A DNA stretch of 39,512 nucleotides from an uncultured Actinomycetes bacterium. GTDB lineage: Bacteria; Actinomycetota; Actinomycetes; Nanopelagicales; Nanopelagicaceae. Position numbers and translations under genes: made by a program. The DNA is taken from NCBI GenBank assembly GCA_903832395.1, contig CAILBF010000061.1, positions 1 through 39,512 of the forward strand, in the 5' to 3' direction. The notes beneath the pieces are model-generated. The model was not told the origin of the DNA. It ran no database searches and was given only the letters and a program-made list of their open reading frames with translations. Positions 19,382 to 23,408 of the stretch are shown piece after piece (within the stretch, counting starts at the first letter, position 1; each line of letters begins with the position of its first letter).

Positions 19382-20316
19382 CGACTGTCGATTTCTCAAC
19401 GACCCTTGGAAATGTTTGGTTCCCATCTCCGGTATTTACGGCAAGTGGTTGCGCCAGTTCGGGGCGTGAATTAGCTCAATTTTTCCCCCTCAATTCAATT
19501 GGTGGAGTAGTCACGAAATCAATTATGAGCAAAGCGCGTTTGGGTCGTCCAACCCCGCGAATGGCCGAGACGCCAAGTGGCATGCTCAATTCAATTGGCT
19601 TACAAGGGCCGGGAATCGATGCCTTTATTGCAAAAGATATTCCCTATTTAATCGAGCAAAAAGCGCGCATCATCGTCTCCATTGCAGGCGAAACCGTTGA
19701 AGAGTATGCAACGCTGGCACGAAAACTTCGCCCGGTTGCAGGTATTAGTGCAATTGAAGTCAATATTTCCTGTCCGAATGTTGAAAACCGAGGCTTAGTA
19801 TTTGCATGCGATATCGATGCTTCACGCCGTGTTGTCGATGGTGTACGACGCACTATTGGCGGAGAACTTCCAATTATTGTCAAACTATCTCCCGATGTAA
19901 CTGATTTAGTCTCAATCGCAAAAGCAGTTGTTGATGCTGGCGCAGATGGATTGGCGCTCATTAACACGGTTCTTGGAATGGTCATTAATTTAGACACCAT
20001 GCGTCCGCACTTAGGTGGAAGGACTGGCGGACTATCAGGACCAGCTATTAGACCGATTGCTGTTCGTGCAATTTATCAAGTTCATGCGGCACTACCGAAC
20101 GTTCCAATTTTAGGAATGGGCGGGGTATCAAGCGGAAGAGATGCCCTTGAAATGATTGCAGCCGGCGCACGTGGGGTCTCGGTAGGAACAGCTAGTTTTG
20201 GAAATCCGAATGCACTTATTAAAATCCAGGATGAGTTACGGGCGTTGCTCATTGAAAAGGGCTTCAGTTCGCTTCGCGATGCCGTTGGTTTTGCCCACCG
20301 CGTAGAGGAGAATTAA
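19378..20316 (+). CDS. pyrD: Dihydroorotate dehydrogenase, class 1B catalytic subunit
   Basis: FMN enzyme oxidising dihydroorotate to orotate in the cytosol. 312 residues from ATG 19378, which overlaps the pyrK stop. The active-site base is Cys, in VNISCPNVENRG, which with adjacent pyrK marks the NAD-linked class 1B. Membrane class 2 enzymes use Ser. Other motifs are FTASGCASSG, NSIGLQGPGIDAF, IVKLSPDVTD, LINTVLGMVINLD, GGLSGPAIRPIAVR and GMGGVSSGRDALEMIAAGARGVSVGTA. Confidence 0.96.
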   Translation: MTTVDFSTTLGNVWFPSPVFTASGCASSGRELAQFFPLNSIGGVVTKSIMSKARLGRPTPRMAETPSGMLNSIGLQGPGIDAFIAKDIPYLIEQKARIIVSIAGETVEEYATLARKLRPVAGISAIEVNISCPNVENRGLVFACDIDASRRVVDGVRRTIGGELPIIVKLSPDVTDLVSIAKAVVDAGADGLALINTVLGMVINLDTMRPHLGGRTGGLSGPAIRPIAVRAIYQVHAALPNVPILGMGGVSSGRDALEMIAAGARGVSVGTASFGNPNALIKIQDELRALLIEKGFSSLRDAVGFAHRVEEN

Positions 20317-21020
20317 TGAACACAAAGGCGCCGATAGTTCTAGCCGTTGATACGTCGGATTTAAATACTGCAATAAATTGGGTGAAGGCTACCGAAGGTG
20401 TGGTCGAAGTCTACAAACTCGGGCTGGAATTCTTTCTTACTTTTGGAGGCGATGGCGTCCGAGCAATCACCGATCAAACCGATAGTGCTATTTTTTTGGA
20501 TTTAAAGCTCCATGACATTCCGCATACGGTTAGCGGTGCTGCCCGGGCAATTTCATCGCTGCGTCCAAAATATTTAACGGTTCATGCTTCCGGCGGAAGT
20601 GCGATGATTGCAGCGGCAGTTGAAGCCGTACCTTCGACCCACGTGACCGGTGTGACGATTCTGACCTCACTGTCTGAAAGCGATGTGGCAGCAATAGGTT
20701 TTAGCGCAAATGCATTGGAGAGCGCAGTGGGACTTGCGAAATTGGCTGTCTCCAGCGGTGCTCGCGCCATCGTCTGTTCACCGCTTGAGATTCTTGCAAT
20801 TCGCTCGGCTCTCGGTGATGCCACAACGATTATTACTCCTGGAGTTCGACCGGCAGATTCGGCCACTAGCGATGATCAAACGCGAACCATGACTCCACGT
20901 GAGGCGATAGATAGAGGTGCAAACCTTGTTGTTATTGGTCGTCCAATCACCTCGGCTTGGAGCGACGGCGCCAGTGCAATGCGAGAACGCGCTTTGGCGA
21001 TTGGCGCCCAGATTCTTTAA
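20316..21020 (+). CDS. pyrF: Orotidine 5'-phosphate decarboxylase (short type)
   Basis: Final step to UMP. 234 residues with the (beta/alpha)8 catalytic motif IFLDLKLHDIPHTVSGAA containing the DxKxxD triad. The phosphate-binding end reads IITPGVRPADS and LVVIGRPITSAWSDGASAM. It is the short type found in Firmicutes and proteobacteria, not the longer (~280 residue) type common in mycobacteria and Streptomyces. The TAATG overlap with pyrD couples them. The pyr operon ends here without pyrE; 28 nt with a new -10 separate it from the next gene. Confidence 0.96.
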   Translation: MNTKAPIVLAVDTSDLNTAINWVKATEGVVEVYKLGLEFFLTFGGDGVRAITDQTDSAIFLDLKLHDIPHTVSGAARAISSLRPKYLTVHASGGSAMIAAAVEAVPSTHVTGVTILTSLSESDVAAIGFSANALESAVGLAKLAVSSGARAIVCSPLEILAIRSALGDATTIITPGVRPADSATSDDQTRTMTPREAIDRGANLVVIGRPITSAWSDGASAMRERALAIGAQIL

Positions 21021-21048: not shown

Positions 21049-21921
21049 ATGGGCGCACCTCCGATTCTTACACCAGAACAACGTGCAGCCGCCCTGGCTA
21101 AAGCCGCCCAATCACGCAAACGCAGAGCTGAAGTTAAAATCAAAATTAAGCGTGGTGAGTTTTCAATTGATACAGTTTTAGAGATTGCCGCTAATGAAGA
21201 GGCAGTTGCAAAGATGCGCGTCCGTGAACTTCTCGAGGCACTTACCGGCGTTGGAAAAGTTCGGGCAAGTTCTTTGATGGAACGGCTAAAGATTTCGCCA
21301 ACACGTAGAATTGGTGGTTTAGGGCGACATCAGATTAAGGAACTGCGAAACGAGTTTATGAAATCATCACATGCGATCACTCCAGGCAAGCTTCTGGTTC
21401 TTTCAGGCCCCGGGGGAGTCGGCAAAAGTACGGTGGCTAGTCGATTGCGCGCCTCGGGAGATTTTTGGGTGAGCGTTTCTGCAACTACGAGATCGCCTCG
21501 AACGAATGAGCACGATGGTGTCGACTATTTCTTTATTACTGACGAAGAGTTCTCTCGAATGGTTCGCAGCGATGAGTTTCTAGAATGGGCAGAGTTTGCT
21601 GGTAATCGATATGGAACCCCGAGCGGACCGGTTGAAGAGGCTTTACTTGCTGGACGCAATGTTTTATTGGAGATTGAGATAGATGGCGCAAAGCAAGTAA
21701 AAGCGCATCTGCCGCAATCGGTTTTAGTATTTTTAGAGCCTCCAACCTGGGAAGAGTTAGTCTCACGGCTTGAGGGTCGCGGTACAGATAGTCCCGATAG
21801 ACGAGCCGAACGCTTGCAATTAGCCCAGGATGAGCTAGCCGCAGCCTCTTTTTTTGACGTGGTCATCGTCAATGATCAGGTCGAGCGGGTCGTTGAACAA
21901 CTGATAGGATTGACCTCTTGA
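21049..21921 (+). CDS. gmk: Fusion protein: actinobacterial integration host factor (mIHF) + guanylate kinase
   Basis: One uninterrupted 290-residue frame holds two proteins that are normally separate neighbours. Residues 1-103 are a complete mIHF nucleoid protein: PPILTPEQRAAALAKAAQSRKRRAEVK, then the helix-two-turn-helix region LLEALTGVGKVRASSLMERLKI and RRIGGLGRHQIKELRNEF. Residues 104-290 are a complete guanylate kinase (GMP + ATP to GDP + ADP). It has the P-loop LSGPGGVGKSTVA (canonical GPSG is GPGG), SVSATTRSPRTNEHDGVDYFF, FLEWAEFAGNRYGTP, NVLLEIEIDGA and GRGTDSPDRRAERL. No stop lies between them. An internal ATG (21358) could give free kinase but has only a weak SD. rpoZ follows. Confidence 0.95.
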   Translation: MGAPPILTPEQRAAALAKAAQSRKRRAEVKIKIKRGEFSIDTVLEIAANEEAVAKMRVRELLEALTGVGKVRASSLMERLKISPTRRIGGLGRHQIKELRNEFMKSSHAITPGKLLVLSGPGGVGKSTVASRLRASGDFWVSVSATTRSPRTNEHDGVDYFFITDEEFSRMVRSDEFLEWAEFAGNRYGTPSGPVEEALLAGRNVLLEIEIDGAKQVKAHLPQSVLVFLEPPTWEELVSRLEGRGTDSPDRRAERLQLAQDELAAASFFDVVIVNDQVERVVEQLIGLTS

Positions 21922-21951: not shown

Positions 21952-22206
21952 ATGACTATGGATGGCATTACAAATCCACCAATTGATGAGCTTCTTGAAA
22001 AGAGTGGCTCTAAGTACAGCCTCGTTCTCTATGCCGCTAAGCGCGCACGCCAAATCAATGCCTATTACTCACAACTTGGAGAGGGCCTTCTGGAATACGT
22101 AGGACCACTAGTTGAGACACACGTTCATGAGAAGCCACTATCTATCGCACTACGCGAAATCAATGAAGGCTTGCTCACGATTGAAAATCTAGAACCAACC
22201 GCTTAA
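21952..22206 (+). CDS. rpoZ: RNA polymerase omega subunit
   Basis: 84-residue omega subunit that helps assemble beta-prime in RNA polymerase. It has the actinobacterial sequence [51 protein letters not shown]. The ATG at 21958 (two codons in) has the better SD spacing (GGGGAA, 5 nt), so translation may begin there. The gmk-rpoZ-coaBC-metK-priA order is the standard actinobacterial one. Confidence 0.96.
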
Positions 22207-22223: not shown

Positions 22224-23408
22224 ATGTCTTCCACAACTCGTGAGGTTATTCTCGGAGTGGGAGCAGGGATTGCCGCTTATAAATCATGTGATCTTTTGCG
22301 ACGCCTGCAAGAGCGCGGATATGGCGTAACGGTTGTTCCAACACCAACATCGCTTAACTTTGTAGGTGCAGCAACTTGGCAGGCGCTCTCGGGTCGGCCA
22401 GTGACGACCCAAGTCTGGGAAAATACTCATGAAGTTTCACATATTTCTTTGGCCGAGCGTGCCGATTTCTTTTTAATTGCCCCAGCAACTGCAGATTTGA
22501 TTGCACGAATTGCCGCTGGTCGCGCCGATGATCTTCTGACTAACTTAGTTCTGGCCTCCGATGTTCCCATGTTAATCGTGCCCGCAATGCACCCGAGTAT
22601 GTGGAATGACCCAGCTACGGTTGCGAATGTGGCAACGCTGCGAAAGCGCGGCTATACCGTGATGGAGCCTGAAGTAGGACGTTTAACTGGTACCGATAGT
22701 GGTCAAGGTCGTTTCCCAGAGACTTCCACAATTATTGCTGCGTTGGATGAGATCTCAGGTAATAAACGTGACTTGGTTGGAAAACGAATTCTTATTACGG
22801 GCGGCGGAACGCGTGAGGCGATAGATCCAGTGCGTTTTATCGGTAATCGCTCATCGGGAAAACAGGCTTTGGCCATCGCGCGCAACGCACTCCTGCGCGG
22901 AGCCACGGTAGATCTCATCGCGGCAAATATGGATAGTTCATCGCTGAATGGGGCTCACGTAACTAGCGTTGAGAGCGCCGCCGAAATGCGAGCAGCATTG
23001 GCCATTAGCTTTCCGCTCTGTGACGTACTCATTATGTGCGCAGCAGTTGCAGATGCCAAGCCTGTGCGTAGCGCTATCGAGAAGATCAAGAAATCTCTTT
23101 TCACCTCGATTGAATTAGAGCCAAATCCCGACCTCTTAGCTGAGTTGGGTAAGAGCAAGACCCATCAGATCATGATTGGTTTTGCCGCAGAAACGAGCGA
23201 GCTTCGTGAATCGGCCCGGGCTAAATTGCTGGCTAAAGGCTTAGATGTTATCTATGTCAACGACGTCAGCGGTGGCGCAATATTCGGAAAAGACACCACG
23301 CAGGGTATGATTCTCACACGCACTGGTGCGGATATAGCGCTCAAGGAAGTCTCCAAAGACGCTCTCGCAAATCTACTCCTTGATCACGCCAACCGGCAGT
23401 TAGGTTAA
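22224..23408 (+). CDS. coaBC: Bifunctional phosphopantothenoylcysteine decarboxylase / phosphopantothenate-cysteine ligase
   Basis: Two steps of coenzyme A synthesis in one 394-residue flavoprotein. The CoaC half (about 1-185) has [18 protein letters not shown], the active-site His in [22 protein letters not shown], and PAMHPSMW in place of the usual PxMNxxMW. The CoaB half (about 188-394) has [26 protein letters not shown] and [10 protein letters not shown] with the lysine-rich KIKK. Both halves look functional. The gap to rpoZ is 17 nt, and metK follows after 4 nt. Confidence 0.97.
23401..23406 (+). promoter_or_regulatory. Leaderless -10 element (TAGGTT) of metK
   Basis: TAGGTT in the last codons of coaBC lies exactly 6 nt before the metK ATG; no SD is present. 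TTGATC (23380-23385) is a weak -35 candidate with 15 nt spacing. This would allow metK to be expressed separately. Confidence 0.45.

Follow-up and report, generated by a model that had tools for sequence, protein, structure and literature searches.

The gene at positions 21049-21921 on the forward strand of the window, i.e. the whole 39,512-nucleotide stretch of DNA analyzed here, encodes a genuine, conserved and convergently evolved two-domain protein built from two well-known parts, the actinobacterial integration host factor (mIHF) and guanylate kinase (GMK). It is a single open reading frame of 290 codons plus the stop, running from ATG to TGA without an internal stop. It probably specifies one bifunctional protein, in which the mIHF part would carry the GMP kinase on the nucleoid at a 1:1 ratio. 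The N-terminal mIHF domain (21049-21360, approximately residues 3-104) has an S13-like H2TH fold and is recovered both by the Pfam H2TH_5 model (residues 33-103, E 4e-24, 84.9 bits versus a cut-off of 27) and by the NCBIfam actino_IHF model NF041260 (residues 5-103, 122.6 bits, above the curated cut-off of 60). A short linker of about nine residues (21361-21384, approximately residues 105-112) leads into the guanylate kinase domain (21385-21918, residues 113-290), whose P-loop GPGGVGKS occupies residues 120-127 and which matches Pfam Guanylate_kin (residues 114-285, E 3e-42) and the NCBIfam equivalog guanyl_kin TIGR03263 (residues 113-286, 214.6 bits, above the curated cut-off of 160.45). The initial annotation had proposed a whole mIHF and a whole guanylate kinase in one stop-free frame, and on this the reading of the frame and the matches to both databases agree; the match boundaries likewise uphold the domain limits that it had given.

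This architecture is a property of the window's genus as a whole. The 32 congeners in which a match was found all have the complete fused frame, finished single-contig chromosomes among them; the four congeneric genomes without a match are 57-82% complete. Across these congeners the full 290 amino acids align end to end, free of stops, at 56-85% identity. The closest named public loci belong to Candidatus Planktophila, e.g. strain IMCC19121 with its complete chromosome (CP015605.1), and to freshwater actinobacterial genomes, including the single-cell genome AAA044-N04. In the sample of the window's family (f1), which has streamlined genomes of 1.1-2.2 Mb (the window's own assembly amounts to 1.84 Mb in 244 contigs), the fusion was found in 70 of the 99 genomes with a match, 68 with the whole frame and two cut by contig ends, and the remaining 29 have two separate genes. 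The fused genera are g1, g25-g28, g30-g32, g35, g37 and g39, and the split ones g29, g33, g34, g36, g38 and g40. The survey of related genomes that had been suggested thus places the fusion across the genus and most of the family. The chance that the fused frame stems from an assembly or sequencing error is practically negligible: one apparent fusion (L174, genome G771, contig C45) does have a run of N, i.e. a scaffold gap, as its junction, and was for that reason discarded as a further independent case, but the same fused frame recurs in assemblies made independently of one another, dozens in all, some of them single-contig chromosomes or chromosomes of isolates. These assemblies, the finished chromosomes and the family-wide conservation rule out an artefact or a recent stop loss.

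The fused gene is also the sole source of both domains in the genomes searched. No second full guanylate kinase match was detected in the fused genomes of the genus and family samples, save for one fused genome whose gene is divided between two contigs or assembly pieces, and each of the 16 genomes searched with H2TH_5 has exactly one locus. In the fused genomes tested for other nucleoid proteins Lsr2 was not found, and the other such protein is HU, usually in one copy, with two matches in the window's assembly. Separately, the assembly of genome G666 holds, on contig C17 (L201, L202), a second mIHF and GMK pair at 48-63% identity, for which contamination is likely.

Nearly all other sampled actinobacteria encode mihF and gmk as two adjacent genes, and the earlier statement that this is the arrangement in most actinobacteria is true of the genomes sampled. 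The fused form nevertheless recurs outside the window's family. In the class sample it is present without stops in family f36, in 15 of the 16 genomes; we take the sequences of this family to resemble those of Microbacteriaceae, and its genomes measure 2.8-4.3 Mb, with a GC content of 66-73% at the loci read. The fusion is likewise present without stops in two genomes of genus g103 of family f34. The phylum sample adds a genome from another class (G742, family f50) with an open fusion and a gap-free junction. In a tree built from GMK, RpoZ and CoaBC, a single clade comprising all fused rows was rejected (lnL difference 244, p-AU ~3e-92), which eliminates one fusion event for the whole class, and the f1, f36 and f34 fusions are therefore best read as separate events. 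Hence, the mihF-gmk fusion arose at least three times, in family f1, in family f36 and in genus g103 of f34, with perhaps an additional origin in the lineage of G742. Inside f1 two trees, one including and the other omitting the columns of the fused gene itself, each require three changes of state, but grouping the fused rows as one clade was not rejected (p-AU 0.16); the family may have seen one gain with fissions, or up to three gains. From the RRxxGLG motif to the P-loop, most fused f1 proteins count 26 residues, though the intervening sequence varies; the distance is 37-38 residues in g32, 28-30 in f36 and 31-38 in f34. Such a near-constant spacing agrees with a single principal event in f1, while g32 may represent a separate one.

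Loss of a single stop codon between mihF and gmk is the likely route to the fusion. In several split relatives gmk lies in frame, within approximately 10-20 codons of the mihF stop, and in L178 and L179 (also in L112 and L113) that stop is immediately followed, in frame, by the start codon of gmk; the arrangement of the L178/L179 type is a one-mutation precursor of the fused gene. The simple loss of a stop codon, which had been raised as a possible explanation of the open frame, is thus retained, in light of these in-frame split relatives, as the likely origin; as a label for the present state it is wrong, since the fused gene is of long standing, extends through the family, is under strong selection and has evolved convergently. 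Programmed stop readthrough, as suggested by the in-frame layout, was considered and found no support, given that, even in a sample enriched for in-frame cases, gmk shares the frame of mihF at 28 of 73 distinct split junctions, and that out-of-frame loci likewise have no canonical gmk start. At four loci from families f88 and f52 (L175, L183, L186 and L190) gmk apparently lacks an ATG, GTG or TTG in the interval from the mihF stop to the P-loop, as it also does at the out-of-frame loci L137 and L144, and at L175 and L183 neither a CTG nor an ATH codon occurs upstream of the first kinase strand. Such loci may reflect initiation at a non-canonical codon, readthrough of the stop or an error in the sequence.

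The neighborhood of the fused gene is that of its split counterparts. On the same strand it is preceded by pyrF (20316-21020), a separate gene wherever it was found, and followed by rpoZ (21952-22206), which encodes the RNA polymerase omega subunit and stands apart from gmk at every locus, and then by coaBC (22224-23408). At most loci read mihF, gmk and rpoZ are adjacent. A deletion of mihF in M. tuberculosis required gmk and rpoZ to be supplied in trans, owing to polar effects (PMC6155035). In the loci read, mihF and gmk are fused at 120, which are not mutually independent, and the pairs pyrD-pyrF, pyrF-mihF and gmk-rpoZ furnish no single-frame case. The genes rpoZ and coaBC share one frame in a single instance (L009, genome G022, from the window's genus) and are separate in its relatives; the shared frame might be genuine or might result from an indel in a metagenome assembly. 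At two further loci (L143 of genome G040, family f5, and L168 of genome G442, family f34) pyrF, gmk, rpoZ and coaBC follow in order with no mIHF detected in the stretch upstream of gmk; mIHF has possibly been lost there or has strongly diverged.

Both halves of the protein are, judging from codon substitutions, clearly under strong purifying selection. For 90 Planktophila gene pairs of moderate divergence, which are not independent of one another, dN/dS has a median of 0.044 in the mIHF half and of 0.027 in the kinase half, with dN being highest in the linker (0.050, versus 0.037 and 0.021 for the two halves respectively). In the kinase half the P-loop and the GMP/ATP-site residues are conserved, and G123, G125, K126, T128, R148, R151, Y160, E179, Y188, R240 and R255 are invariant in an alignment that takes in distant guanylate kinases. 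It is predicted to phosphorylate GMP, as its single copy and low dN/dS also suggest. The RRxR motif of split mIHFs, whose arginines presumably correspond to Arg170, Arg171 and Arg173 of the M. tuberculosis protein, reported to be important for DNA binding or contact, reads R86-R87-I88-G89 in the window and hence retains two of the three arginines. The third is found in 20 of 20 outgroup split mIHFs and in none of the confirmed gap-free fused proteins, which have glycine, glutamine, alanine or lysine in its place. It is also missing from the split mIHFs of g34, g40, L169, L177-L179 and L187-L189, so that its loss was rejected as a mark of fusion and is only a correlate. The mIHF domain has a net charge of about +9 with most basic positions kept, and its DNA binding could be weakened or altered by the loss of the third arginine.

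These residues bear on the idea that the mIHF half no longer acts in the nucleoid and is now just a structural or oligomerization part of the kinase. The absence of the third arginine from every confirmed fused protein is in keeping with it, as are the somewhat faster evolution of this half relative to the kinase and its strong divergence in some fused genera. We nonetheless regard it as improbable, given the constraint on the mIHF half, the persistence of its positive charge, the retention of Arg86 and Arg87 throughout the window's family with one exception at position 87, and its being the sole mIHF in genomes that yielded no other nucleoid protein than HU, Lsr2 being absent. A different departure from a single polypeptide would be a gene that still yields two proteins, with free kinase arising by initiation at Met104 or by proteolysis of the linker. 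The ATG in question (21358-21360) lies 16 codons upstream of the P-loop and, as a candidate alternative start or a fossil one, is conserved only in the window's subclade of the genus; among the 45 distinct sequences of this subclade, which is marked by an EF(M/L)K motif, 42 have ATG, two TTG and one TTA at this site. Together with a linker that is flexible in the structure model, this favors the two-protein reading, and the initial proposal that free kinase could be made from this codon stands to the extent that initiation is possible in the subclade. However, no conserved ribosome-binding sequence was found upstream of Met104 in the subclade, where synonymous positions vary freely, and in many other fused relatives the proposal is untenable: among 99 distinct fused junctions, 22 are devoid of ATG, GTG and TTG over the 18 codons scanned, a stretch ending four codons short of the P-loop. 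A start codon is absent from this stretch in other Planktophila, in nearly all f36 junctions and in both listed f34 junctions. Internal initiation therefore cannot be the general source of the kinase, and we consider production of two proteins distinctly unlikely; Met104 may instead be a fossil of the former gmk start.

The proposed bifunctional protein would then operate as follows: its N-terminal domain would bind and bend DNA, its C-terminal domain would convert GMP to GDP, and the two, folding independently on a short linker, would have the kinase ride on the nucleoid in a fixed 1:1 ratio. The join would have arisen when the mihF stop codon was lost between closely packed, co-transcribed essential genes, and would have persisted because neither half can be dispensed with or has a second copy, and because a C-terminal extension is harmless to mIHF. 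An AlphaFold model based on 26 sequences (mean pLDDT 89, pTM 0.70) comprises the mIHF helices (residues 9-104), a weak block at residues 101-110 with a mean pLDDT of 63, and the guanylate kinase from approximately residue 113. No fixed interdomain arrangement or interface is evident in it, judging by the pTM and the weak linker, and of the dimer or oligomer suggested earlier, a fixed dimer finds no support there. If the mIHF half binds DNA, the architecture itself would anchor the kinase at the nucleoid. In M. smegmatis, where the gene is essential, IHF fusions to EGFP or mNeonGreen sustain normal growth and mIHF-EGFP replaces the native protein (PMC10028186), which indicates that a large fused partner is tolerated. 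In M. tuberculosis mIHF ranks among the ten proteins of highest abundance (PMC6155035); such amounts are not normally required of a metabolic kinase, and the benefit of a fixed 1:1 ratio is therefore not obvious. The Gmk of M. tuberculosis is an essential enzyme under the control of phosphorylation (PMC5686395).

The most likely reading is thus a guanylate kinase that is bifunctional and bound to the nucleoid, and beside it stand two views of the tether, as merely tolerated or as important. According to the former, operon compaction was neutral: a stop was lost, both halves kept their old jobs, and the association of the kinase with the nucleoid is incidental, without any coupling. This is a serious candidate, if somewhat short of an even chance. 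It is favored by the split relatives in which just a stop and a few codons separate in-frame genes, the streamlined genomes of f1, the side-by-side occurrence of split and fused genera in that family, the linker being the fastest-diverging part, and the model's want of a confident domain arrangement. Against it, mihF-gmk was fixed independently at least three times when, in the same loci, the pairs pyrD-pyrF, pyrF-mihF and gmk-rpoZ were never found fused and rpoZ-coaBC was found so once, and the larger genomes of the convergent family f36 indicate that streamlining is not the common cause; the 26-residue spacing in most fused f1 members also speaks against it, though shared descent may explain that. 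According to the latter view coupling was selected, in that the tether supplies GDP/GTP at the nucleoid or guanylates (GMP, GDP, ppGpp) modulate DNA binding by mIHF. The same preference for mihF-gmk over the neighboring pairs, the conserved linker length and the adjacency of mihF, gmk and rpoZ at most loci read are consistent with it, but the model has no interdomain interface, GMP and GDP diffuse fast in a small cell, and close relatives live without the fusion; on balance we consider it unlikely. Very improbable is the stricter version of a nucleotide-sensing nucleoid protein, in which occupancy of the kinase by GMP, GDP, ATP or ppGpp alters DNA binding by mIHF or DNA alters the kinase. Were it true, chromosome packing and guanine nucleotide supply would be co-regulated in one repeatedly evolved molecule.

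Nucleoid-associated proteins are usually small free-standing DNA binders, and it is unusual for one to be joined, family-wide and repeatedly, to a kinase of core metabolism. The freshwater bacteria that have this fusion are an abundant group. In them a DNA binder that is normally very abundant would be made in a fixed ratio to a metabolic enzyme, and GDP synthesis should take place on the chromosome. Nucleoid-localized nucleotide supply and cross-talk between guanylates and chromosome packing thereby become testable in cultivable freshwater actinobacteria, and also in a second lineage of larger-genome relatives, with natural split and fused relatives providing a ready comparison.

Our literature searches combining mIHF or integration host factor with guanylate kinase recovered no report of such a fusion. 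NCBI types its actino_IHF model as 'equivalog_domain', and its curators may already be aware of longer proteins with this domain. The individual parts have solved relatives, namely sIHF (4itq) and mIHF (6tob) for the N-terminal domain, and M. tuberculosis Gmk with many others for the kinase; the best solved matches in a Foldseek search were the M. tuberculosis Gmk structures 1z8f, 1s4q and 1znw (target TM 0.86-0.87, 45-46% identity). With mIHF/sIHF (NF041260) the protein shares a full-length match over residues 3-104 that passes the curated cut-off, and the gene neighborhood, but those proteins end after about 105 residues whereas the fused one continues into a kinase and has Gly89 in place of the third arginine of RRxR. 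With Gmk (TIGR03263; Rv1389) it shares a complete P-loop, the conserved kinase residues, the fold and the above level of identity; Rv1389, however, has only a short N-terminal leader where the fused protein has a domain of a DNA-binding family. The split mihF-gmk loci of other Actinomycetota have the same order of pyrF, mihF, gmk, rpoZ and coaBC and differ in the stop codon between the two genes, which in several lineages is a single stop in frame. MAGUK-type proteins offer a further parallel, as they too join a guanylate kinase fold, in their case a C-terminal GK-like domain, to other domains. The MAGUK GK domain binds proteins and has no catalytic activity, whereas in the mIHF-GMK fusion the catalytic residues are intact.
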